Shown: positions 687-58,029 of the stretch, piece after piece | How positions within the stretch are numbered: the stretch's first letter is position 1 | Layout: each line of letters opens with the position of its first letter | NCBI GenBank assembly: GCA_964036195.1 | Contig: OZ038451.1 | Coordinates: 15,380,529-15,444,528, forward strand | Direction of reading: 5' to 3' | DNA from: Sphaerolaimus hirsutus | Lineage: Eukaryota > Nematoda > Chromadorea > Monhysterida > Sphaerolaimidae | Length of the DNA: 64,000 nucleotides | The notes under the pieces: generated by a model | The model's input: only the letters and a program-made list of their open reading frames with translations | Database searches by the model: none | What the model was told of the DNA's origin: nothing | Translations under genes and position numbers: made by a program

Positions 687-2163
687 TTTTGTAAAGTTCC
701 CTCTAGATTCTATTTGAGTTTTTCAGTAGTTCTGATTGAATGACTAGACACCTGGATAGTAACTTGTTTCGGTAAAATGGTGTGAAATTTGTTTAGGGGT
801 TCAGCGTCCACTAATGTATTTACTTTTGTATTTTGTGTATTTACATAAATACAGATGATGTATGCACAGTAGATTATGTATTTACATAAATCACGCCTAC
901 ATACCTGAAAATGCATTCAAAACGCAGAAAGTCATTCATTTCTGTGTTTTTACACAGAAAGATGGAACCTTATATTTGTCATGGTTTCTTAATTGTTATT
1001 TACAAGAGTGCATGGAATGGAGTGTATTTATGATAAAGTAATTATCGCTAAACGTCGTAAATAGTATTTACTATTCTCCCTCTGTACAGTATTTTCTATT
1101 GTCCCCAAATTCTCCCTCTGTGGTCACGGGGAATTTGACCCTTACGGGGATTCAATAGATAGCAAGTCACTTCTCCCAAGGAATAAATTGTTGGAATTCT
1201 TTTTTTCGTGGTGGATGGGGGCACGGTTCGCAGTAGTCCTATATTGGCTTTTTAAGGTGTAGAATTGGATGGCAGAAAAGGGAAAAAAATCAAAAAAGTT
1301 GTAAAAAATAGCTAACAATATGTATACAAAGATGTATATTGCTCAAAATGGTGATTTTGAAGGTGAAAATTGGTTAAAATGTGCCAAAATTAAAGTTGGG
1401 GTTTCGAACTACTAGTTTGAACCATGGAGTGGAGTTTGAAGCTACCATAAATAAAGTACCAATCAGAGCCCATCTTGGAGAAATGCTTGTTTCTCACATA
1501 TCTGTTAGGTACATCAATGTAATGCCTATTTACATTTGAGTGCATGGTTTCTGAATGTGATTTTCCATCAAAGTGAATAGTATCACAGGTAATATTTCTG
1601 CTGTAAGGAGGTTTTTCAAAGGCAATCATCATAGTACAAAATGTTTATTTTTGACACCCATCCATCCATGCATCAACAGACTTGAACGCATGTAATTACA
1701 TGGGTCCAGTAGAGGGGATTCGGTGTTACCCCCCCCCCCCCAAATGCTTCAGCTACTAATTATATTTCTTCCAATAGAAGAGTGGGTCTCTAATTCAAGA
1801 ATAAGGTGCACGTTTTGGCTTTTTTGAGCCACAAAGTAAACAGAAGGTCGGTCTCCAATACGAGGGTTATACTCATAGCAAAAATGCTGGAACTGTGTCA
1901 AATGTGTAAAAAAGTAAAAATGGCAGCATGTGCCTAGGTGTTTATGCATTCATTTTTCATTATTTTTATATTGTGTTAGCTGTTTGACAATCAATGGAAA
2001 CTGTAAGTAACACATTGTAACACTTTAGCAATTCAGGCTATTTCTACAAATTTTCTGTGATTTTTAGCCACTTTCTCGTTTTTACACATTGATATACCTT
2101 TATAGTTTATACTTAACCACCCAACCCCATCCCTCCCTACAGAACATTTTTGTTCCCCTCTGA

Positions 2164-2796
2164 AGGACCACCACAGATTTCCAAATCTACAAGAACCCTG
2201 TGTAAATGTAATCACCCCTTCATGTCATTTAATCTGATAAAAAATGGCTAAAGCCAACAAAAAGTGGACGCTGCACCTAAACATGTGTATGCTTTTGAAT
2301 GCACAAAAGTAATATATCATATACAATGCCATTTTCTGATTGAGCTATCAAAAGATGTATATCAAGGGAAATGTACACAAATGCTAATAATATAGGCTAT
2401 CAACACAGCAAACTGCATCACAAGAAACAATTTCACCAAACTTTGCATGGCAGCGTGAGCTTTTTGTATCTTGAACGTTTGCAGCACTTTGACACAGCTC
2501 ACGCTGCCATGCAAAAGTTTGATGAAATTGTTTCTTGTGATGCAGTTTGCTGTGTTGATAGCCTGTATTATTAGCATTTGTGTACATTTCCCTTGATATA
2601 CATCTTTTGATAGCTCAATCAGAAAATGGCATTGTATATGATATATTACTTTTGTGCATTCAAAAAGCATACACATGTTTAGGTGCAGCGTCCACTTTTT
2701 GTTGGCTTTAGCCATTTTTTATCAGGTTAAATGACATGAAGGGGTGATTACATTTACACAGGGTTCTTGTAGATTTGGAAATCTGTGGTGGTCCTT
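2164..2796. mobile_element. Foldback (palindromic) element, copy in left arm
   Basis: Two arms of about 290 bp (2164-2457 and 2500-2796) are reverse complements around a loop of about 40 bp. Outer ends read AAGGACCACCACAG and its complement. Short open frames on both strands are symmetric shadows. The right end touches the gap, so the far boundary is not seen. Confidence 0.85.
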
Positions 2797-2996
2797 NNNN
2801 NNNNNNNNNNNNNNNNNNNNNNNNNNNNNNNNNNNNNNNNNNNNNNNNNNNNNNNNNNNNNNNNNNNNNNNNNNNNNNNNNNNNNNNNNNNNNNNNNNNN
2901 NNNNNNNNNNNNNNNNNNNNNNNNNNNNNNNNNNNNNNNNNNNNNNNNNNNNNNNNNNNNNNNNNNNNNNNNNNNNNNNNNNNNNNNNNNNNNNNN
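2797..2996. other. Assembly gap (200 N)
   Basis: Run of N at the centre of the inverted duplication. Open frames that span it are artefacts. Confidence 1.
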
Positions 2997-3463
2997 CTGA
3001 TTGAGCTATCAAAAGATGTATATCAAGGGAAATGTACACAAATGCTAATAATACAGGCTATCAACACAGCAAACTGCATCACAAGAAACAATTTCATCAA
3101 ACTTTTGCATGGCAGCGTGAGCTGTGTCAAAGTGCTGCAAACGTTCAAGATACAAAAAGCTCACGCTGCCATGCAAAGTTTGGTGAAATTGTTTCTTGTG
3201 ATGCAGTTTGCTGTGTTGATAGCCTATATTATTTGCATTTGTGTACATTTCCCTTGATATACATCTTTTGATAGCTCAATCAGAAAATGGCATTGTATAT
3301 GATATATTACTTTTGTGCATTCAAAAGCATACACATGTTTAGGTGCAGCGTCCACTTTTTGTTGGCTTTAGCCATTTTTTATCAGATTAAATGACATGAA
3401 GGGGTGGGAATTTACATTTACGCAGGGTTCTTGTAGATTTGGAAATCTGTGGTGGTCCTTCAG
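2997..3463. mobile_element. Foldback element, copy in right arm (left part in gap)
   Basis: Reverse-complement partner of 2164-2796 with the outer part of its left arm missing in the gap; the right end again reads GGTGGTCCTT. Confidence 0.8.
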
Positions 3464-4933
3464 AGGGGAACAAAAAATGTTCTGTAGGGAGGGATGGGGT
3501 TGGGTGGTTAAGTATAAACTATAAAGGTATATCAATGTGTAAAAACGAGAAAGTGGCTAAAAATCACAGAAAATTTGTTGAAATAGCCTGAATTGCCAAA
3601 GTGTTACAATGTGTTACTTACAGTTTCCATTGATTGTCAAACAGCTAACACAATATAAAAATAATGAAAAATGAATGCATAAACACCTAGGCACATGCTG
3701 CCAGTTTTACTTTTTTACACATTTGACACAGTTCCAGCATTTTTGCTATGAGTATAACCCTCGTATTGGTGACCGACCTTCTGTTTACTTTGTGGCTCAA
3801 AAAAGCCAAAACGTGCACCTTATTCTTGAATTAGAGACCCACTCTTCTATTGGAAGAAATATAGTAGCTGAAGCATTTGGGGGGGGGGGGTAACACCGAA
3901 TCCCCTCTACTGGACCCATCTAATTACATGCGTTCAAGTCTGTTGATGCATGGATGGATGGGTGTCAAAAATAAACATTTTGTACTATGATGATTGCCTT
4001 TGAAAAACCTCCTTACAGCAGAAATATTACCTGTGATACTATTCACTTTGATGGAAAATCACATTCAGAAACCATGCACTCAAATGTAAATAGGCATTTA
4101 ATTGATGTACCTAACAGATATGTGAGAAACAAGCATTTCTCCAAGATGGGCTCTGATTGGTACTTTTTTTATGGTAGCTTCAAACTCCACTCCATGGTTC
4201 AAACTAGTAGTTCGAAACCCCAACTTTAATTTTGGCACATTTTAACCAATTTTCACCTTCAAAATCACCATTTTGAGCAATATACATCTTTGTATACATA
4301 TTGTTAGCTATTTTTTACAACTTTTTTGATTTTTTTCCCTTTTCTGCCATCCAATTCTACACCTTAAAAAGCCAATATAGGACTACTGCGAACCGTGCCC
4401 CCATCCACCACAAAAAAAAGAATTCCAACAATTTATTCCTTGGGAGAAGTGACTTGCTATCTATTGAATCCCCGTAAGGGTCAAATTCCCCGTGACCACA
4501 GAGGGAGAATTTGGGGACAATAGAAAATACTGTACAGAGGGAGAATAGTAAATACTATTTACGACGTTTAGCGATAATTACTTTATCATAAATATACTCC
4601 ATTCCATGCACTCTTGTAAATAACAATTAGGAAACCATGACAAATATAAGGTTCCATCTTTCTGTGTAAAAACACAGAAATGAATGACTTTCTGCGTTTT
4701 GAATGCATTTTCAGGTATGTAGGCGTGATTTATGTAAATACATAATCTACTGTGCATACATCATCTGTATTTATGTAAATACACAAAATACAAGAGTAAA
4801 TACATTAGTGGACGCTGAACCCCTAAACAAATTTCACACCATTTTACCCAAACAAGTTACTATCCAGGTGTCTAGTCATTCAATCAGAACTACTGAAAAA
4901 CTCAATTAGAATCTAGAAGGGAACTTTACAAAA

Positions 4934-7900
4934 ATGAAACTATATCTCCAATGGCTCATCAATTTGGTCAATCTGTCAGTGCTGGTAGCACAGGTGATGT
5001 GAAAATGATGTTTTTATTCTGCCATACTCGGCAGGGCACTACCATAGACTCAAGTTGTATTTATAGACAACTTTTCTCACACCACAGGAATATAATCAGG
5101 AGAAGCCACCAATTGTGATTGATTTAAACAAAACCATACCGAAAGAAATTTGTGAATTTGAACGACTGAAACATACAAAATGTATGCAAAGATTTTATGA
5201 CTGTGGACAGTCGTTTGATGATGGATACAGAATGGATCATTTTAATGAGAACGAGATCAGAAGGAACATCGATAAATGTTTTACAAAGTGAGTTTACTGT
5301 GGTAATTATCACATCACCACTCTGTTAAAAAGTAAGTCATTGTGGCTCGAAGATTTGAATTCTGCATCAATGGCATGTGTTTCCGCACAAATATTAACAA
5401 CCTGAGATTGAAGAAAAACTTGCAAAACATTCAGGCAGTGGCCAGAAGAAAAAAAATTGCTAAGAGAATACATACTCAAGCCATTTACATTGTCAGATGT
5501 ATATGATATTATTATACCACGATCATCGGGCGAAAATGTGACAGTATCCATTGGGCCGGAACAGTGGAGGGATACTCAAACATGTGCCAAACGCTGGGCC
5601 CAGGAGCATTTCAATCCGGTTATAGAACTTTGTATGGCACAGAAAGGATATAGTGATTTTGTCTTTCCGAAAGATCAAGGAGGGGCAGAGCTGTTTGAGG
5701 AGCCAATCAACTATGAATTTGAAAGACACAACTACTTTGACAAGCCTCTGAAGAGGGTGGCAAACTTCACTGCAAAAATAAATGAACTGTAAGTATATAA
5801 GACGTCCCTTGTATTCATTCAAAAGCTTTACATGAACACCCCACTATCTCTCAATTCCAGAATTCAGGAATTGCTTCACGAGATCAACAGCGATATGTTT
5901 GTTTATAACTGTCAGACTTGAATTCACTGCAATATCCGCTGCACGAATACATTTTCCAGATATGGTTTTGACAAGGATGATGTGAATAGTGTGTCAACAT
6001 GTCTGATTTCTAATATGAAGCAGGCAGAAGTACTGATTGGCAGTTTTTTTGGACCCAGTGAAGCCATGGTGAAGCATCAGCAGTTTTGTCAAGCATATAG
6101 GAATTGTCCAGAGCGGTGTGTCACCGCCATGCAATTTGATATTAAAAGTAGAATACTATTTTGCCTTTTTCACTTGATATTTATGATTGATAAAAATCTT
6201 AAAGAAAAGCCATCCTAAAAATTGTGAATCACATATAGAGAGTCAAATTGACAAGGCACAAAATTACCCAATGGTAGTGGTCAAGATGGCATTGTTTTAT
6301 TGCAAGACCAGCGGCACTGTCATTGTATGGTATGGTATGGTTTACTAAACATAAGAATATTTGGCAACCATACTTGTTCATGGTAGCTTTTTCCAAAAAT
6401 TCAATGCCTAGTAACTGACCCTGTCTTGGGTCAGCAATTATTGAGCATCTTAACACTTTTTTGACCTCTGGGGGCACTCCCAAACCCCGTAAAAGACCCT
6501 GTAACGTGTAAAAGACCATGTAAAATGTCATGTGTCATGTATAAGACCCTGTAAAATGTCAGGTGTCACGTAAAAGACATTGTAAAGTGTCAAATGTCAT
6601 GTAAAAAACCCTGTAAAGTGTCATGTGCATCCAAATCTTATTTTATCATAGCTAAATCTTATGTTTTGTATCCAAATCTTACTTTGATACAAAAACACGT
6701 TACTCTTTACATATATGCATAGATTGGATGCGATAAAATGAGATTTGGATACCTATGACACTTTACAAGGTCTTTTACATGACATTTGACACTTTACAGG
6801 GTATTTTACATGACACATGACATTTTACAGGGTCTTTTACACTTTGCAGGGTCCTTTACAGAATCTGGAAGTGACACCTGGTATAAATCTTTGTGATAAA
6901 ATATTTACAGAACAGCCTGCATTGAGCACCAAAAGAATATGCCACTATCACTGTGTGAATGTACATCTTGGCTACATAGTCTTTCACCTAGCTCACTTGA
7001 ATCACTTTTCCAGTGCTTGCAGGGAAATGGGATGGATGTAAAGGCTGATGATAGATGGCAAGTTTATCCACAGACTTCAGGTTTCAATAGTGTCTATAAG
7101 TACTGCAAGGTTTCAACAAGCCTCATTTCTACATTTGCTCAACAGAGTGGTCGTTTGCCTGAGTCACATTTTATTCTACTTTCATTGATACAGGAGGCTT
7201 TACTAGTGTTTTTGATGAGCACATTTTCAGAACTCGCAATCAAATTTTTATTTCAAATAATCAGGTATGATCAGTTACAAAGTGACATCGGATCTATCTC
7301 CGATGCCACATTGGGTCAGAAAATCATTGATGCACTTTTGTTTGGTAAGGGTGACATCCATGGGCTGGGTGACAACTGCATGTCCATTGCGCAGGCAGAA
7401 AAATGGCATCCCTGTGATGTCGATTCATTGTGGGAGATACAGGTAGGTTCCTTTACATACAATTCTTCAAGGATTGAGATAATAGTCTATAGAAATATCC
7501 ATACATTGTCTTAGGCCCTGAAAGAACCGCCAGAGCCAGAAAAACCAGTTCCATCATGGCAGGTGTTCAAAGTTCCCACTGATGGTGGTTTTGGTGATGG
7601 AATATTCATCACAATTCCAAATGAAAATTACTTTCGGCCAGAAGTGGTTGAAGAACTACCCCCAATTGACATTGGATCTGGGCAGCCGCCACCAAACCCA
7701 GCAAATGGCAGAGTGAAGCGCGCAGCAGACCAGTGTGGATTGCTGCCAGTACTCAAGGGACTCATTGAGAAAACACACGAACAGTGCAAGACATCAGGTT
7801 GCATCATGAGGCGATTTTTGCTGGCGTTCCAAACCAAGCATTCCAAATACAATGATATATTTACAATTATTTGCCAATTGCAGACAAACCACTGAACTGT

Positions 7901-14570: not shown

Positions 14571-15885
14571 TTAAGCGTTGTAACGGGTGAATCCACTTTG
14601 ACATGTTGTGGAATCTAACATGCCATCATGGGAATATTACATGTTGTGGAAAGTGACATGCCAAAAGGTGAAAGTAACATGTCAAGCGTGAAAGTAACAT
14701 GCCACAGCCCAAAGGTGAATGTAACATGCAAAGCGTGAAAGTAACATGTCATGCACATGCAGTCGCAAGTCGTATCTCGTGTGTGTAAAATAATTATCAG
14801 TGATTGATCATTATCACCATGTTTGTGAAGGTGTGAATTCTATGTGTGTGCACGCGCGCAAATCAAACCCACACCACGTCGATAAATAGGACACAAATTG
14901 TTAACCGATACAATCTGTGGTTTTTTAATCATCTTTGTTTTGCTGTGGTAGCATTTACGATGGCTAATTTCAAAATTTTATTTTACTTTCAGAATTTTTA
15001 TTTAACTCCTAGAAAAATGCCCAATTTTTCTAGAAAAATTCTAAAATGCAAAATTTTGTGAAATGTCATTTTGGAAAATACAGAGAGTTTTTTGTTATGA
15101 TGGAAAATTTTTTGCACAGCTTGCTTTTTTGTTAAAGTTTACTTGTTATTTGCATATTTTGCTTTGAATTTTACATTGAATGTATTGTGAATGTTTGTTG
15201 ATTTTTTTTGTATCTTCTTAGTCATGTGTACTAATATATTTACTAACTCATGTGTGCTGTGCTGTCTAGTGAAAGATATTTTTATATTGATGAATAATAT
15301 TAACAGGCTATGATTTTAACAGTGTCACTTTAATAAAGCTAAAAACCGTTTGCCAAACTAAAAGGCGAGCCAAGCCCATACTTATGGAATAATTAATGCC
15401 AAAACAATATGCGCTAAAAATACACAATGCTGATAACTTATAGCTATACTGAAATATCGCTATAATTAGTCTCTCTCAACAATAGCACTGTGCGGAACAT
15501 GTGTTGCGACCGATGATAAAAAAACAACAGATTGTATCGGTTAACAATTTGTGTCCTATTTATCAACATGGTGTGGGTTTGATTTGCGCGCGTGCACACA
15601 CATAGAATTCACACCTTGACAAACATGGTGATAACGATCAATCACTGATAATTATTTCACACGCACAAGATACGACTTGCGACCGCATGTGCATGACATG
15701 TTACTTTCACGCTTTGCATAATACATTCACCTTTGGGCTGTGGCATGTTACTTTCACGCTTGACATGTTACTTTCATCTTTTGGCATGTCACTTTACACA
15801 ACATGTAATATTCCCATGATGGCATGTTAGATTCCACAACATGTTAAAGTACACAACATGTCAGAATGACCACACTCGTTGTAAC
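14571..15885. mobile_element. 1.3-kb element with terminal inverted repeats of about 350 bp
   Basis: 14571-14925 and 15525-15885 are reverse complements, rich in direct words such as GTGAAAGTAACATG and ending near ACATGTTGTGGAATCTAACA. The interior of about 600 bp is AT-rich with no credible frame. Intergenic, upstream of gene B. Confidence 0.8.
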
Positions 15886-16428: not shown

Positions 16429-19400
16429 ATGAAAAGTTGTGTATTGACCTTCTATATGACCGTAACTTTGTGCTCCATTGGAATACTGGTAATGAGCTAT
16501 TCTTTGATATATTTTTTACACAGGAAAAACAAATCAATTGATTTGTTAGTTTCTAAGCTTTTAGTTTCCAAGTAGCTAAATTTGATATTCTTATGATGAC
16601 AGATATTACAGTTAACCTTAAGTATCAACGTGTACGTTTCAAACCTTCCTAAAATGGTGCATTTTTGGTTCTGGCATCTTTTTCAAAATACTGTGTATAA
16701 TTTGGTTAAACATGTGCATCCAAAATTAAAATCATGCCAATTCAACAATGTCCAATGGTTCTTTCATCAAATGGTAAAATAAATCCTATAGATGCAATGC
16801 ACACATGATAAATCACATCCTGAATGCATACTGCTTTGGAATCACTGACACCTGTCAATGGATGTATGATATTTGTCCCTAGTCAAAAATCTCACCTGAA
16901 AGTCTGAGAAGCTGAGACTTGGTGAATAGATCTGATGAAAATGCAGTACAATTCATGTTTATATTTAGTAATTGATGTAATCATTTTGAAAAACATAGCA
17001 TGCCCAACGTTTGCAGGCTCAAGATGAGCACTCATCTGCATCCCAATCAACCCAAGATGCCCCCAGTACACAGTGCTCACAAATGTCAGATGACTATGAG
17101 AGCTGTATGAAAAAGCACTATGCATGTGGTGCACTCCATGATGATGGCTACAGGATGGACTACTTCACTGAGAATGGCATAAGAAGAAATTTTGACAAGT
17201 GCCTTCTAAAGTCAGTCAAATCAGATTCTAGTTGGTATCCAATGGAAAACTGTCCTGCAAATCTCAACCCCTATACAGCTATGTGCCTCCAAATTCACAG
17301 CAGCAGATATTTCTGCGAGGTTTGCTAACTGAATACACAATGAAGCCACTGACATTGGCCTATGCTACACCGATTGTCATTCCACAACCAGGTGCCAATC
17401 CAACACCCTGTAAAATATCATGTAGAATGTAAAGTGTCTGGCACAAAATATGCCAAATGCGATTAAAACTTCCCCACAAGCTTAAAATTTGACTGGGCGT
17501 TTTAAAAGTTAGCTGACAATCAACACTTTATCTGACATTTTGCTTTTTACATGTGATGTACAGAGTGCAGGACTGGCCTCAGGTGGTCAAAAGAATGTGA
17601 CAATCACATTCGGTCCAGAGCAGTGGAGTAAGATACAGAAATGCAGCAATGCATGGGTGAAGGAACATTTCAAGCCCATTGTGGAAGTTTGCATGAGGAT
17701 CACAAAACATAACAAAAATTTTGCATTCCCAAATCCTGATATTGGACAAGGAGCAGAGATTTTTGTTGGACCACAATCACTTGATGTGGATCAATATTTC
17801 GACCAACCACTGAAAAGAACAGCAAACTTCACTGCAAAGATGAATGAAGTGTTAGTGAAAATGAAACTGCTAAAAAGGAGTTTTTCAAACAGTTTTCTTC
17901 ATTAAAATAAATTCATCCATATTTGCAGGGTGCAATGGCTTTTCGAAGAAATCGAGAAGTGTGTGCTTTTAACAGAGTGAAAAAGTAATGATGGAATGAA
18001 ACTGTATGACATATGTTTAATTACTCAGGGGTGATTTGGGCGAGGGAGCGATTGAAGCAGTTGAGACATGCCTTCTGGAGCAACTCAAATCTGCAGAGAA
18101 ACTCATAGGGGAGCTGTATGGTCCCAGTGTAGCAATGGAGAAACACAAGAAATTCTGCAAAGGCTACAATAACTGCTCACACATGTGCGTTGTCCCTTAT
18201 TGTATGGATTTGAAGGCCGGTAGGGCTACAGAGTATGTTTAAGCATAATATATTGATCTATATATATTTACAGGCTATATTTTGTGTACAACACTCACAA
18301 AATATAATATATCTATACATATTTACAAGCTTTAAAACTTTTTAACCAAATTTAGTCGATCACATTTCTCCACATGAACCTTAAAATTACTGGCAGTGAC
18401 AATCTGGCAGACATCCACATTACTAAAACACAATGTATAGATACACATTGCCAGATGAGCTAAGTGTTGTCACATTCCAAATTTATCATCTTTATGCCCA
18501 CAACAAAACCACATTTAATCCAGGCAGCGTCCAGAATGCAAAAACCACAGCCAAATCTTATCCCAGAGTCTTTGTGATTGTACACAAAACTGGCTGGACA
18601 GGCTCACTCCTGAAGGACTGGGCAGCATTTTTGAGTGTTTGCAAGATGAAGACATGAACTTGAAATATGATGATAAATGGTGAGTGAATGCAGTAATGCA
18701 CGTGTGTTCTCACAAATTAAGTGATTGTTAAATTACAATCTATCTGTACGTTGAAGGTATCAGTCCCCTGAACATGCATTGGACCTCTCACTTAACACAA
18801 TTGGTGAAGGTGTAGTGCAAATCTTAACAAATGGCTACCTCTATATGGATGGGATTGTGCAGAACTGCAGGAAAATCGCAAGTCACAATGAAGAGAGGCA
18901 ACATCCATGCACAGTAGATTCACTGTGGAAAATACAGGTTTTCAAAATATATACAATTTTTCGTACAAAATACAATAAATCATATAATGAAATAATGTTT
19001 TCAACAACATAGGTGGAGCTATAGTATAGCATTATAAGTGGTGATTTCTATCGAAAAATCCATGTCCAAAGCAGGCTAATGCATATAAAGTGATGTTTCA
19101 CACTTCAGAAGTGGAAGTAATCAGTTGGATTTCATATTTATACTACAACTAAATACACTAGCACATGGTCGCTTATTATTACACAGAATATTAGCATGAA
19201 GAAATCGAAGCTTAAAAACCAAACATACAATAAGAACAATCCCCAAGTTTAATCTGTATGTGAAATTGCGTGATATGGTAAATCAGTACTGAATTCTATT
19301 CAAAGAAAACAGTTTCAATGCTCATGTAAAAAAAGAACGCTGAAGACTCTGGCCACGTCTATTTCAATGTCAACAACATCACCTTCCCACTACCTGCTCA

Positions 19401-20653: not shown

Positions 20654-23600
20654 TCAACACCGTTCGAACACCGTGTACAATTTGGGCACATCGACCAATG
20701 TCCTGATGATTGCCGAGTGTCCAAAGTGGGCGGGCACGAGCAGTTTCCTTTTGGCTGCCGGCCAGAATACATTGGCCACTAGACAGTGCACATCCACATT
20801 GGGACAGTCGAGCACACTGGCGTAGAACTGAGACAAGCGCCTGTAAAGAAGTCGGCACCTGCTCGCTCACGCTTTGTGGTGGGTAGAATTCGAAACTTCA
20901 CGTTTTATCAATGCCAAGCAGGGGTTTAGTGGGGGGTTGGGGGGGGGGGTAACCCCCCCCCCCCAAATCCGCCAGCTATCTTTCTATCCCGGAGGCAAAA
21001 TTTTGGGCTACTATCCCTAAACCCCACCCAAATCGGCCAGCTATCCATCTATCTGGAGCAAATTTCAAGAAATTTTATCCCATTTTTCGCTCAAAATCGC
21101 TAATTTTCGTACCATTTTATAGTTTTTCACCTTCAAAATTCTAATTCATGTTCCGTATTGCCTATTTTCGCCTATTTTTGTACTAAATGTACTTATATAC
21201 TTATTTTCAGCTGTTTTTCTCCTACTTTTAGCGATTTTTTCCCTTTTCTTCCTTCTATACCTCGGAAAAGCCTATATATTGAACCCCCGCGAACCCCCCC
21301 CCCAAAAAAAATTGTTTTCAGCTATCTATCCCTCCGGGGGAGCGATTTACTATCTACACCCCCGTTCACCATGGTTGGCACCATTGAGATATTTTCAGAA
21401 AACAATTCATAACTTCACTATACAGGATTGTATTTGGTCAAGTGGGGTATCCCTTGTAGGGCAATTCAAGCCCTACAAGTGCATATAGGGCACAACTGAT
21501 TATCTCTTCTCTAGGGCATTTCATGGGCCAGACAAATTCTTTAATTCATTTAAAGCTGATCACCATGGTTGGCACCCTAGCGTTTTTTGGTCTTAAATCC
21601 TGATTTCCAAGGCTGCATTCTGCAACAATAGCCAGATTTGAAGAAGTTTGGCACCAAGCCAGCTCTGAGTGTCAAGGCCCAGCTTGAAATGCATTTTGAT
21701 GACTGTTTTCATTCTATTTTCTGGAACATGGCGGCAGATGATAAAAATAGCTATTTTAGCTATTTTCATTGCTTTTCAGTCGCTGAAAATGCCTTGGTTG
21801 ATGAATATGTCATCCACATGCTGTGGTATGACTTTGTCATGGCTGCATATGTTTTGTAAATGTACTGGAGATGCCCAAGTACTGATGTTGATTTCATCAA
21901 TGGCTGTTTCTCCAGACATATGGCCCTCATGTTCAAGCAGTTTGTAAAGGAAACATATCTGACTGTAAGAGCAATGTTCAAGCTTTAAAATGAGTGCTTT
22001 CATGCATAAATCTGTTCACACAAATGTGAGATATGCTAAAGCGAAATTGTTACTGCCATTATCTTGCCTATTTACTACTGAATTTACAATTTTTGTGATA
22101 ACATGATTTTTGAGATGGCCAATCTCATATTTGTGTGAACAGATTAATGCATGGAGGCACTAATTTTAAAGCTTGAATATTCCTCTTACAGTCAGCATCT
22201 GGGCCTTTACAAACTGCTTGAACATGAGGGCCTTATGTCTAGAGAAACAGCCATTAATGAAATCAACATCAGTACTTGGACATCCCCAGTACATTGACAA
22301 AACATATGCAGCCATGACAAAGTCATAACACATGATGTGGATGACATATTCATCAGCCAAGGCATTTTCAGCAACTGAAAAGCAATGGAAATGGCTAAAA
22401 TAGCTATTTTTATCATCTGCTGCCATGTTCCAGAAAATAGAAGGAAAACAATCATCAAAATGCATTTCAAACTGGGCCTTGACACTCAGAGCTGGCTGGG
22501 TTCCATACTTCTTCAAATCTGCCATTTGTTGCAGAATGCAGCCTTGAAAATCAAGATTTAAGACCAAAAAACACTAGGGTGCCAACCATGGTGATCAGCT
22601 TTAAATGAATAAAAGAATTTATCTGGCCCATGAAATGCCCTAGAGAAGAGATAATCAGTTGTGCCATATATGCACTTGTAGGGCTTGAATTGCCCTACAA
22701 GGGGATACCCCACTTGGCCAAATACAATTCTGTATAGCAAAGTTATGAATTGTTTTCTGAAAATATCTCAATGGTGCCAACCATGGTGAACGGGGGTGTA
22801 TATGAACCCCCGCTGGTGTCCAAACTTACAAAACCCCTGGTGCCCAGTTACTAAAAACGCATGGTATTGTCTTTGTTAGAGGCCGACACATGCTAAATAC
22901 CGTATTTGTTAGAAATACCCCCTCAAAACGGCCACTATGAATAAATACCCCCCCCCTCAAAATGAAAAAATACCCCCCGGGGTATTTTGAAGGAATAGTA
23001 GTTTAGATTTACCATTACAAAATCACGGTGAACTATCATCTTTGATTTTCACCACCCGAAATAAGCAAACATTTTCAACCAGCTCACATGCAAAGCTGCT
23101 CTATGCATTCCTTCTCATCTTGCACACTAGCCAGTACTTCTAAAATGTCATTTATTAACTCTGGCAGAGCGCCAATTGGCAAATCATCCCAATTAGAGAG
23201 TACTTGCGGCAAGGCAGAAATATTCTGACTAGAAATCCGCGTGCTAAAATAGTCGTCCATCATTTCTCCCATCTCGTCTAGAACTGTCGTGTTCAAATCG
23301 CTCACTGTTTGACCTCTCTGCATCGGGTGCAGTGTATTTACATTGTAATAAACGATCAAAATTGACAAAAATTACCATTGCCAAGAGGGCATCAATTTCC
23401 AGCGGTTCCGGTAAGCGGATGGATGCCAGGTTGCCCAGACGGAAAATGAGACTCTGTGAAAAAGAAACGAACTATGAATGACTTTACCAACATAGTGACC
23501 CGACAGGTTTCGATATTGCATTGCACTGCAAGTGTGTAACAAATATCCTATAAAGAAATATCAGGGGTGGTCGGAGTTTCCTTCGACAGTTTTTTGTCAA

Positions 23601-43016: not shown

Positions 43017-43378
43017 AGGGGGAGTCATGTCGTGTGTATTGTGTCGTGTTTGGGTGCACAGTGTGGCCAGGCTTCTGCTGTAAGAGAATGACATTCCAGA
43101 TGAAAAAAGTTTGTCATTTGTTCAATAATAACTTCTTTGGAGGTGCTGCAGGGAGGAGGGGGGGGGGGAAGTTGTGCCATGTCAAGGTGTATCTGTCATC
43201 CAAATGTAAGCCCCCATCATTTCACTTGGCATTGGGTACTAAACGGAATCATATTCGCATGTCAAAGTGTAGTAGTTAATTGAACATCAATATGTACAAA
43301 AACTTCAATCAACTACTAAAGGGATTTGTTCAGGTGCTCTATGATGGCTTGTAGAGTGCCTGGACAGTGTGATACGTA

Positions 43379-44283
43379 CATGGTCGGGCTGAAAAGTCCC
43401 CGGGCAGTGCTCGCCATTCGCGCTAGGGGTAAGCTACGGTCATAAAATTTTAACACGTTAATATATCAGGTGTTTTGAGTTTTCACCCAAAATTTCACCC
43501 CTCTAGCTCCACCCACTGCGGAATTGTGGGGGTTACAATTTCGGTCATTTTGTACTGATGTACAAATGATGCTCTAGCTCAATGCTGCTTTAAGTTGTGA
43601 TCATGAAACTTTTCCTAGTGTAAGCCACCAGTGTTGGCAATGTGCTGATAGTATTCAACACTTTCATCAACATCATTGCTATTAAGGTAAAATGAATATG
43701 CAGATCAGGGTGGTGTGCAAGAAACGTGGGAACTGTGATGGATGTTTTTGATGATCATCTTAGATCATGTTGTATTGCAGTGATTTTAATGTTGTTTTGA
43801 AATGTGCAGTAAATTATTATGTCAATTAAATTTCATTTGTGTTTCATTACTTATGTGTAGTGGACACATTACCTATGTTCAACAGCAGTGAGTAGACTCC
43901 AAGGGGGACTATTTTGAGAAGGAGAGGCAGAATGATGAATTTGGTAGTGAGAGTAGTGACAGTAATGTCAATATGAACTAGGCTTATGATATCATAGCTA
44001 ATGTTGGTTAGTGCTGGCACATTGCCAACACTGGTGGCTTATACTAGCCAAAGTTTCATGATCACAGCTTAAAGCAGCGTTGAGCTAGAGCACCATTTGT
44101 ACATCAGTACAAAATGACCGAAATTGTAACCCCCACAGTTCCGCAGTCGGTGGAGCTAGAGGAATGAAATTTTGGGTGAAAACTAAAAACACCTGATATA
44201 TTAACGTGTTAAAATTTTATAACCGTAGCTCACCCCTAGCGCGATTGGCGAGCACTGCCCGGGGACTTTTCAGCCCGACCATG
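43379..44283. mobile_element. Mariner-type MITE (905 bp)
   Basis: Terminal inverted repeats of about 220 bp begin CATGGTCGGGCTGAAAAGTC and continue CCCGGGCAGTGCTCGCC. Flanked by TA on both sides. The unique centre of about 430 bp has no transposase frame. TA duplication plus long inverted ends point to the Tc1/mariner group; this is inference. Confidence 0.8.
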
Positions 44284-44461
44284 TACATAAGTGTTGATTT
44301 TCTTATTAAATGATTGTTTTGCACTCCCTGTACCTGTGAACTTTTCGGCCAGTTGCATAAAATCACTGATTCTTTTAAAATTTGTGAAAATCCCATTTGT
44401 ATTGACCAGCGAGAAACTTAAAAATATTTACAGGGAATGCCCCCAGTGACTGCACTGGAAC

Positions 44462-52735: not shown

Positions 52736-53036
52736 GCCAATATTCCCCAAATTACAGCTCTAGCTATTTTCAGCTCATTGCAGAAGATAAGGTGTCAGTT
52801 TCAAATTTGTAAACTGCCTGCCGGACTTGTTGCGAACGCAGTTTAGTATGCGGAAAAAATCGCCGCAATATTGATGTTTACGCGTATATTTATAGGTGTT
52901 CGGTTGACTTGCCCACTCAAAATCATGACTTCGGGCACTTCATTAGCATCGGTTCGTCATGTGATACGCAGTAAAATATGTAATTGGCAACTTGTATCAA
53001 GTGAACTGGATATCACCACTATTAAGCGGGAATTAG

Positions 53037-53547
53037 AGCTCAGCGTCGATTCGACGTGAAATGATGACGTGAAATGTTTTCGTGAAATTAATTACACGAG
53101 TGTGGATCATGCTACGGGTCTACAATTTTCTGTGGGTAATATATGAATCAATACCTTAATCGTGTCCAATACTGAGTGTTATCAGCCACAACTAGAGCGA
53201 ATTGAAAAATTCAATTTTTATCATTCCACGTCATCATCATTTCACGTCACAGTGTCAGGGAACAACTCGACATTTCACGTCAGACTATTGCTTGCAATAG
53301 TCTGACGTGAAATGTCAAGTTGTTCCCTGACGTAAAATGATGACGTGGAATGATAAAAATTGAATTTTTCAATTCGCTCTAGTTGTGGCTGATAACACTC
53401 AGTATTGGACACGATTAAGGTATTGATTCATATATTATCCTTAGAAAATTGTAGACCCGTAGCATGATCCACACTCGTGTAATTTATTTCACGAAAACAT
53501 TTCACGTCATCATTTCACGTCGAATCGACGCTGAGCTCTAATTCCGG
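53037..53547. mobile_element. Foldback MITE (511 bp)
   Basis: Near-perfect palindrome with ends GAATTAGAGCTCAGCGTCGA and complement; central point near 53290 (CTATTGCTTGCAATAG). Same family as 39308-39684. Confidence 0.85.
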
Positions 53548-53837
53548 CCTTATAAGGAAATTAAGTGAATGTGGCCGCGCGGCAGTTCGTTTCCCGCACA
53601 TTCCCATCGCGGTCAACATATTGCAGGTTCAAATATAATATAAAATACCTACATATTAGCAATATTTACCTTTATTTCATTTGTAATAAAAAATTGCTGA
53701 AATTCCGATCATGCGATACTTTTGAATAACACCCGATAATAAAATACTTCATGAAAACTTGTTATGGTACTTTTTCACATGCTTGTACAGATTTAGTTGT
53801 GTCCATTAATTGCACTGTTTACAAAAGTAAATATCGT

Positions 53838-56524: not shown

Positions 56525-58029
56525 ATGCTGCTCCAAAAATCACCGGCATTCATACTGACATTCAGTCTAACTTTTCTAGTTGGCATCGAAATTGGCCAGG
56601 TGACAATCCCAGACCCTGTAAAAAGCCCTTTTAAATGTCAAATGTCATGCAAAGTGTCAAAAGTCATGGAAAATGCCCTGCAAAATGGCAACCTGGTTGC
56701 CATTTTGCAGGGCATTTTCTATGACTTTTGAAACTTTGCATGACATTTTACATTTTACAGGGCTTTTTACAGGGTCTGAGAGTGCCCCCAGGCACTGAAT
56801 CCCAACAGACATGCGCATCAAACTGGAAACAGGGCACGCAGGTCATTAGGTCAAAATGAACCTGCAGATTTCTGTGCGCTGAGGCCGTTCAACACGACTG
56901 CAGAGCTGGTGGATGATGATGGCTACTTGTGCCGCGGGCCTATCACAGTGATGGCTTGTTTCGGATATTGTACTACCAGTGAGGTGTGTGCTGTGATTTG
57001 GCTATTCTGTTCACTCCAATGAACAAAAATAAATACAGGTGCCAATCCCAGACAATTTAAAGTGTCAAGTGTCATATGAATGTCACGCGTAGTGTCAATT
57101 CATGTGACAAATGTAAAACAAAGTGTCAATTGTCACGCTAAGTTCAGTAATAAAATCTGTTGTTGTTGTTTTGTTTTGATTGACATTTTATATGACATTC
57201 AACACTTTACTTTATACTTTAGAGGGTTTGGAACTGCCCCCAGGGGGTAGTTCAGCACCCTATAAACTGTAAAGTAAAGTCATGCAAACCGGCACGCACC
57301 CCCCAACCCTACCCCCCACCCCCCGCAGCACGGCACGGACACGTTCCCGGGGATCAGCGGCGACTACGACCAGTGCATGATCACCAGCACGCGCACCAAG
57401 CACATCAAGCTGAGCCACTGCGACCCCGAAGCGGCCGACTACATCAGGCACGTGGCTGTAGACGAGGCCGCTAGTTGCGCGTGCAAAAAGTGAGCTGGTG
57501 TTTTGGTGTGAGCCTGGCAAAGGTGGCCTGCAGGCGGACCGATTAGTGGTGTGAAAAGCGTCAGTACCTTGGCGCCACTGTCTGACCCACAGCGCCAGAG
57601 TGAAATAGCGCCAGGTGCCAGCACCTTAATGGCGCTTTTTACTTTGGCACTGGCGCCCGGTGCCAGTAAAGTACTGTACCGTACCGGTACTGTAAAAGTA
57701 ACGCTACAGCGAATTCTCTGCAACGAATTAACTGTGCAACAACGTTCCGTAGATAACGCTAATATCTTATACTGTCGGATCCTTTTTCCCCTACCACCAT
57801 TTTGAGGACGCGGTAATTCCACGGAAATCATTTCAAAACAAGTTTCAACATTTAGATGGAACATACCTACCTAACTGTGACTCGACCGCACAGGTGCGAC
57901 CCCCTGACAGCCAAATGCGTCTCGAAACGCCCCTCCCCATCAGAGGGGTCATTCGCACCAACAAGGCGACAACACGGCCACACTGCAAAGAGACGTCTGG
58001 CGCGCTTGAGGCAAATGTTTCGAAAGTGA
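56525..58029 (+). CDS. GPA2: Cystine-knot glycoprotein hormone, alpha-2-like (GPA2), 4 exons, 187 aa
   Basis: Exons: 56525-56599, 56792-56983, 57329-57489, 57894-58029; phases 0, 0 and 2 all join. Residues 1-25 form a hydrophobic signal peptide (MLLQKSPAFILTF...). An RARR site follows at about 39-42. The knot begins with C53 then LRPFNTT (sequon at N59). C72 and C81 are spaced as in vertebrate GPA2, C81-C85 form the CxGxC motif (CFGYC), then come C105 and C120 fifteen residues apart, and a terminal CACKKC (139-144). These features match the thyrostimulin alpha subunit. Two oddities: the usual adjacent Cys pair at 105-106 has a single Cys, and a basic tail of about 40 residues with C151 extends past the normal end. 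Intron 1 is exactly an introner-type element. Bursicon or another cystine-knot ligand is the alternative. Confidence 0.75.
56600..56791 (+). mobile_element. Introner-type element forming intron 1 of the hormone gene
   Basis: The 192-bp intron is a near-perfect palindrome. Left arm: GTGACAATCCCAGACCCTGT. Right arm: ACAGGGTCTGAGAGTGCCCC followed by CAG. Centre: GCAACCTGGTTGC. The donor (CAG|GTGACA) is in one terminal repeat and the acceptor (GTGCCCCCAG|GCA) in the other, and removing exactly this segment keeps the frame (phase 0). Confidence 0.85.
57039..57243 (+). mobile_element. Introner-type element inside intron 2 of the hormone gene
   Basis: Begins ACAG|GTGCCAATCCCAGAC and ends GGAACTGCCCCCAG|G; arms are rich in AGTGTCAAGTGTCAT and its complement. 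Sense orientation, but enclosed in a larger intron (56984-57328), so it could be spliced as an intron within an intron. Confidence 0.8.

Follow-up and report, generated by a model that had tools for sequence, protein, structure and literature searches.

Introners are by now well established, and the part of the 2022 survey by Gozashti et al. that was available to us reports them from only two animal groups (PMC9860276). The survey describes them as families of similar introns derived from non-autonomous DNA elements, many with terminal inverted repeats (TIRs) and/or target site duplications (TSDs), and the family of this study shares these features. In one of its types, the 5' splice site is part of the element and the 3' splice site is co-opted, with a 4-bp TSD and no TIR according to the legend of its Figure 2C (PMC9860276). 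Unlike the introners in the available part of that survey, the elements described here occur in an animal, form a hairpin over their full length with TIRs at the ends, use a 3-bp CWG target and also occupy coding junctions in CTG targets that lack an AG. Comparable features are also known from the introner elements of Amoebophrya, which form hairpins from inverted repeats and show direct repeats of 3–5 nt over the exon/intron edges (PMC7789003). In the sections of that paper accessible to us, however, the inverted repeats measure 8–20 nt and the elements, from a dinoflagellate, are defined within a set of non-canonical introns whose ends vary, whereas here a single family displays GT-AG in most of its coding-class copies.

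Animals with common non-GT/AG introns are known from the larvacean tunicates, in which 95% of introns escape GT/AG according to the accessible part of the report (PMC13326754), while the donor here is GT. Introners are also mentioned for the tunicate Oikopleura dioica in the available portion of a further paper (PMC10597677). Human TG 3' splice sites likewise give GT-TG ends at U2 introns, but as far as the excerpt at hand describes them, TG serves there only as an alternative within 28 nt of an AG (PMC2374985), whereas here a TG would keep the frame of a CHGN gene. A search by title and opening of the abstract found no published account of this element family; its reach was partial, with subscription papers mostly outside it, so that we do not claim the family as undescribed. 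Based on the analyses below, the first intron of a glycoprotein hormone-like gene of Sphaerolaimus hirsutus is very probably an introner, namely a non-autonomous, palindromic, MITE-like DNA element that entered a CWG site and duplicated 3 bp.

The hormone gene and its first intron

The window, i.e., the whole 64-kb stretch of DNA analysed, harbors on its forward strand a gene that is called GPA2-like based on the match of residues 58–142 of its predicted product to the cystine-knot chain 8enb_B of the PDB (E 5.8e-12); Pfam Cys_knot matched at E 0.021, under the cut-off of the family. Exon 1 (56525..56599) consists of 25 codons and is signal-peptide-like (MLLQKSPAFILTFSLTFLVGIEIGQ), the hydrophobic run at the N-terminus having been judged by eye. 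Exon 2 (56792..56983) contributes 64 codons with the first part of the cystine-knot region and is separated by intron 2 (56984-57328) from exon 3 (57329..57493). The first-pass annotation had proposed that exact excision of intron 1 joins a signal-peptide exon in frame to a 64-codon exon, and indeed the joined coding sequence (56525-56599, 56792-56983 and 57329-57493) is open over 143 amino acids. If intron 1 were kept in the mRNA, translation would stop after 68 residues.

Intron 1 (56600..56791, forward strand) is 192 nt long and would correspond to one element plus the right copy of its target, with GTGACA as donor and CCCCCAG as acceptor. Based on a CWG target duplication, the left CAG copy (56597..56599) is exonic and predicted to be retained in the mRNA, while the right CAG copy (56789..56791) provides the acceptor AG. 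In between, the 5' TIR (56600..56615) bears the GT donor, and the outer end of the 3' TIR (56773..56788) has diverged into a C-rich tract. The earlier description of this intron as one near-perfect palindrome proved correct: its arms (56595-56693 and 56695-56793) measure 99 nt each and are 90% complementary. The predicted RNA fold reached -132 kcal/mol with a z-score of -21.3, which was equalled by none of 200 shuffled sequences.

Three further copies lie within the window, as had also been noted at first, and exact-intron status was demonstrated for none of the three. A second, diverged copy (57036..57243, forward strand) is located inside intron 2 of the hormone gene and is not an exact intron. 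Another diverged copy (17389..17582, forward strand) has a coding-looking right flank; its interpretation as an exact intron is doubtful, and a reading with an older intron on the left breaks the frame. The third is a diverged, longer relative (6468..6880, reverse strand) with apparently non-coding flanks. At locus L006 (about 1200-1800, reverse strand), a copy stands directly behind TTATCTTACAG, a possible older acceptor, and the right end of the element itself supplies another CACAG there. At the settings used, 48 inverted-repeat pairs were detected in the window, including long ones with arms of 218–500 nt and 92–100% complementarity at 21451-22703, 2213-3406, 1761-3863, 14595-15850, 43373-44289 and 53020-53554.

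The element family and its target duplication

A search of 348,482,957 bases on 762 contigs with the 17-base 5' end, allowing at most one mismatch, resulted in 2,219 + 2,135 matches genome-wide, compared to 0 + 1 for the reversed control. The consensus ends of the element are GTGCCAATCCCAGACC on the 5' side and GGTCTGGGACTGCCCC, followed by CWG, on the 3' side. For closer analysis, 74 anchor loci were sampled, all of them on contig C1, comprising the first 50 of 100 listed exact AGGTG-form sites (L009-L058) and the first 24 exact CTGGTG-form sites (L059-L082). Since selection required a perfect 5'-end match and followed the order of the copies along the contig, the sample favours young copies. 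The 3' end was found in 41 of the 50 AGGTG-form and 18 of the 24 CTGGTG-form anchors, and the coding counts do not include the remaining 15. The commonest length was 192 nt (5 of 41 AGGTG-form copies), and the 28 copies of 180–200 nt, the window copy included, revealed a mean mutual identity of 80% with a maximum of 94%. Similarity among copies in different genes extends to both splice edges, as these edges would be placed by the coding frames. Hallmarks of DNA transposition are present in the form of TIRs and a CWG target duplication.

Some loci showed additional peculiarities. Seven element 5' ends (four CTGGTG, three CTAGTG) are found within 1.3 kb on the reverse strand (G000, C1:31369466-31370767), spaced about 150–370 bases as if in a tandem array. 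The anchor pairs L016/L017 (C1:3682480 and C1:3992436), L023/L056 and L019/L020 have near-identical flanks and resemble duplicated segments or copies inside another repeat. Locus L084 on contig C762 belongs to a mitochondrial piece of 4,335 bases (81% A+T) with a repeated sequence behind a cox1-atp6-like part, and genes on this contig appear to lie on both strands. The frame after cox1 is one that we take to be atp6-like, and the contig reads well with AGA as Ser, judged against conserved COX1 positions; in this it is unlike tunicate mitochondria.

An end rule without AG preference was applied to 73 anchors, 11 of which remained without an end. Left and right triplets were CAG-CAG in 26 copies, CAG-CTG in 4, CTG-CAG in 3 and CTG-CTG in 12 (p 2e-5); in the other 17 copies, the left triplet was TAG, the right one was CCG or CGG, or a CNG was missing at the expected position. 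The agreement was also found among copies without a coding score (12, 4, 0 and 6 in the same order; p 0.003) and, after addition of L059 (CAG), L082 (CAG) and L074 (CTG), in the resulting non-coding counts of 12, 4, 2 and 7 (p 0.017); here, the right triplets of L082 and L074 were read by eye, and L059, mis-anchored by the neutral rule, reads CAG. This association between left and right triplets points to a 3-bp CWG target duplication. The acceptor AG is therefore best read as part of that duplication and not of the terminal repeat. The first-pass annotation had assigned asymmetric splice sites to the two terminal repeats, and this holds for the GT donor and the C-tract, which come from the element ends, but probably not for the acceptor AG. 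A CAG belonging to the terminal repeat itself was rejected as an explanation, because the right end is either CAG or CTG and the triplets agree even without a coding score.

Genome-wide, the 5' flank was balanced with 527 CAG to 506 CTG (p 0.53), as predicted for a strand-symmetric target, while the 3' flank displayed 989 CAG to 732 CTG (p 6e-10), and the two ratios differ (p 0.001). Selection for AG would be predicted to produce just such an excess of CAG, restricted to the acceptor side. Among sampled copies with CAG on the left, the right triplet was CAG in 14 of 15 coding-class copies and in 12 of 24 others (p 0.006). No CNG was in place in one of the former and eight of the latter, and without these rows the contrast is weak (14 of 14 versus 12 of 16, p 0.10). 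The single coding-class exception, L016, was mis-anchored and also reads CAG, so that ends other than GT-AG, the mark of the Amoebophrya type, were not found among these 15 copies. Exact pairs of 5' and 3' ends on contig C1 numbered 13 among the matches listed (7, 1, 2 and 3; p 0.22), which is too few. As for the donor, GTGACA or GTGCCA is weak past GTG, and the 5' GT of the sampled copies is fixed by the way in which they were picked.

Coding frames and protein matches across the junctions

In 59 readable copies, the element was removed exactly and the codons on both sides were scored with a small codon model, for which ten junctions supported by homology (697 codons) served as the training set. 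Of the 49 untrained copies, 16 scored above zero at the junction, compared to 1 of 49 at each of two control points 300 nt away (16 versus 1, p 7e-5). Sliding of the right edge in 58 copies, with L017 dropped as it shares its flanks with L016, revealed a periodicity of three bases: the exact edge scored above zero in 24, in-frame offsets in 22–24 and out-of-frame offsets in 5–8, the 24 at the exact edge including nine of the ten training copies. Without the training copies (n = 48), the corresponding values were 15, 13–14 and 5–6 (15 versus 6, p 0.047). Enrichment at exact intron edges, as anticipated by the first-pass annotation, was thus recovered in this sample with coding frames in place of an annotation. 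A total of 34 of the 58 sampled copies had no coding score at the junction, so that by this measure only a minority of the sample would qualify as introns. Antisense scores were above zero in 9 of the 49 untrained copies and exceeded the sense score in five (L041, L044, L070, L076 and L079), so that the codon score alone leaves the strand unfixed. The sole clear antisense copy is L079 (C1:12102770; 22.8 versus 8.7 in sense), whose reverse strand reads CAG/GTGGCAG...CACCAG/ and thus offers a GT as well. The lengths of the 25 coding-class copies left remainders of 0, 1 and 2 on division by three in 10, 6 and 9 cases, respectively; thus, 15 of the 25 would cause a frameshift if retained.

A Pfam search with 30 peptides, among them the hormone and one peptide not used, revealed families above the curated cut-off in seven. 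The junction is crossed by ABC_tran (L049), Filament (L057) and CHGN (L064) and, by few residues, CBS (L066), while LRR (L012) and a FAT4-type cadherin (L028) are confined to one of its sides, and in L036 it is flanked by two calpain domains. No Pfam family was detected at E up to 0.1 in 13 of the 30 peptides. The remaining matches were below the cut-off, e.g., C2H2 fingers that span the junction in L026 and L071 and a cadherin in L027, and those to nec1, RIFIN and Vpu were taken as chance. Comparison with the PDB resulted in alignments that are gap-free at the junction for AMPK-gamma (E 7.1e-29), an ABC-F ATPase (E 1.9e-38), vimentin (E 2.6e-11) and FBXL2 (E 2.3e-34); the L078 peptide hit SETD3 chains at E 0.6 only. 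The Pfam alignment of CHGN spans the junction (E 2.2e-11). All protein-confirmed junctions (L012, L049, L057, L064 and L066) are in sense orientation.

An intron is absent at the matching site in one AMPK-gamma paralogue, located on contig C2, in which query residues 1–62 run uninterrupted with 85% identity. This empty site reads AAG TTG GTC, compared to AAG CTG (element) GTC in the C1 gene that carries the insertion, and the AMPK-gamma frame is restored when exactly one CTG remains.

Proposed origin and removal of the introns

Overall, the introner interpretation of the first-pass annotation is supported at the sequence level by a family of thousands of matches, in-frame junctions, protein alignments and the target duplication. 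We propose that the element, presumably driven by a transposase, inserts at CWG and duplicates 3 bp. With GTG as its first bases and a C-tract as its last, an insertion into a CAG on the sense strand would give CAG/GTG...CCCC-CAG/, i.e., a GT-AG intron, and its removal by the spliceosome would restore the original coding sequence. The arms would pair along nearly the whole intron, and the stem may both conceal false acceptors and draw the true ends together. In predicted folds of the 25 coding-class copies, the paired fraction was 0.91 for AGs in the last 60 nt, 0.64 for the donor and 0.58 for the acceptor end (0.80, 0.69 and 0.60 in 29 other copies). AGs are thus more paired than the ends, which suggests that the stem may hide false acceptors. 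Fold energies averaged -0.59 kcal/mol/nt for the coding-class copies, -0.41 for the others and -0.21 for random 190-mers.

In vertebrate GPA2 genes, an intron is located close to where the signal peptide ends, and the hormone gene might accordingly have possessed an ancestral intron at this place, into which the element landed before a deletion trimmed the rest, so that here, unlike at other sites of the family, an intron would have been replaced and not gained. Such a history would fit the Aedes GPA2 gene, which has at least two exons in the part of its description available, and also intron 2, which contains a second copy without that copy being the intron. It seems unlikely to us, since both edges of intron 1 correspond exactly to the element and its 3-bp duplication, which is the pattern that a fresh insertion should leave, and no remnant of an older intron was seen on either side of it. 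A more general objection is that the element could be an ordinary MITE that inserts anywhere and has no advantage in splicing, exact introns being chance survivors. The 34 of 58 sampled copies without a coding score would agree with this, as would the strand symmetry of CWG in the 5' flank. Against it, coding scores at the exact ends are far above those of the shifted controls, GT and C-tract are supplied by the element, and the 3' flank shows more CAG than CTG; moreover, every protein-confirmed junction is in sense orientation, and the single clear copy in antisense has a GT on that strand. We thus regard the ordinary MITE as very improbable, and to us the element looks like a source of new introns.

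Unexpectedly, exact coding junctions were also found at copies in CTG targets, e.g., in the AMPK-gamma (L066, C1:5.7736 Mb) and CHGN (L064, C1:5.4211 Mb) genes. For both, no GT-AG choice was seen that leaves the conserved sequence unchanged, and the intron that restores it would be GT...TG. CHGN was represented by a single locus in the genome search at E up to 0.001. In the nine sense coding-class copies with CTG on the left, the right CTG is retained in five and an AG is missing in six, the right end of L081 being CCG. By codon score, L060 (sense 14.3, antisense 5.8) resembles L066 and L064, while L070 and L076 are doubtful (sense 0.1 and 3.9, antisense 2.7 and 4.9). Three further coding-class copies (L062, L071 and L078) pair a left CTG with a right CAG, which looks like a change of the intronic copy to an AG.

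Possibly, then, the stem and not the AG guides removal, and copies in CTG targets are spliced as GT-TG or otherwise independently of AG, with L066 and L064, by score L060, and less surely L070 and L076 as candidates. Excision up to the CTG restores conserved sequence (gap-free in AMPK-gamma, aligned across in CHGN), and the five copies that keep the right CTG point in the same direction. On balance, we hold this to be rather doubtful. The antisense scores of L070 and L076 are slightly above their sense scores, and the right CAG in three of the nine copies, together with the genome-wide 3' CAG excess, indicates that AG is preferred. Human TG acceptors, in the available part of their description, occur only beside a nearby AG (PMC2374985). 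The stem contains an AG 18–19 nt upstream, whose use would lengthen the L066 frame by six codons but disrupt that of L064, and in L066 an AG 18 nt downstream would lose six codons in frame; another AG may thus be the one used. Finally, the alleles or genes concerned may be losing their function. Tentatively, and with the same reserve, a non-tunicate animal may process many transposon-born introns ending in TG or CG, with a hairpin that presents the ends and hides internal AGs, and GT-TG may pass into GT-AG through a change in the intronic target copy alone. If this were true, the successive steps of intron birth could be observed within a single genome.

The origin of new introns is an old open question. 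A family with readable target duplications and at least one paralogous empty site would allow the path from transposon to intron to be tested, while its two target classes, of which CAG would provide an AG at once and CTG would not, may serve to test how selection mends an acceptor.
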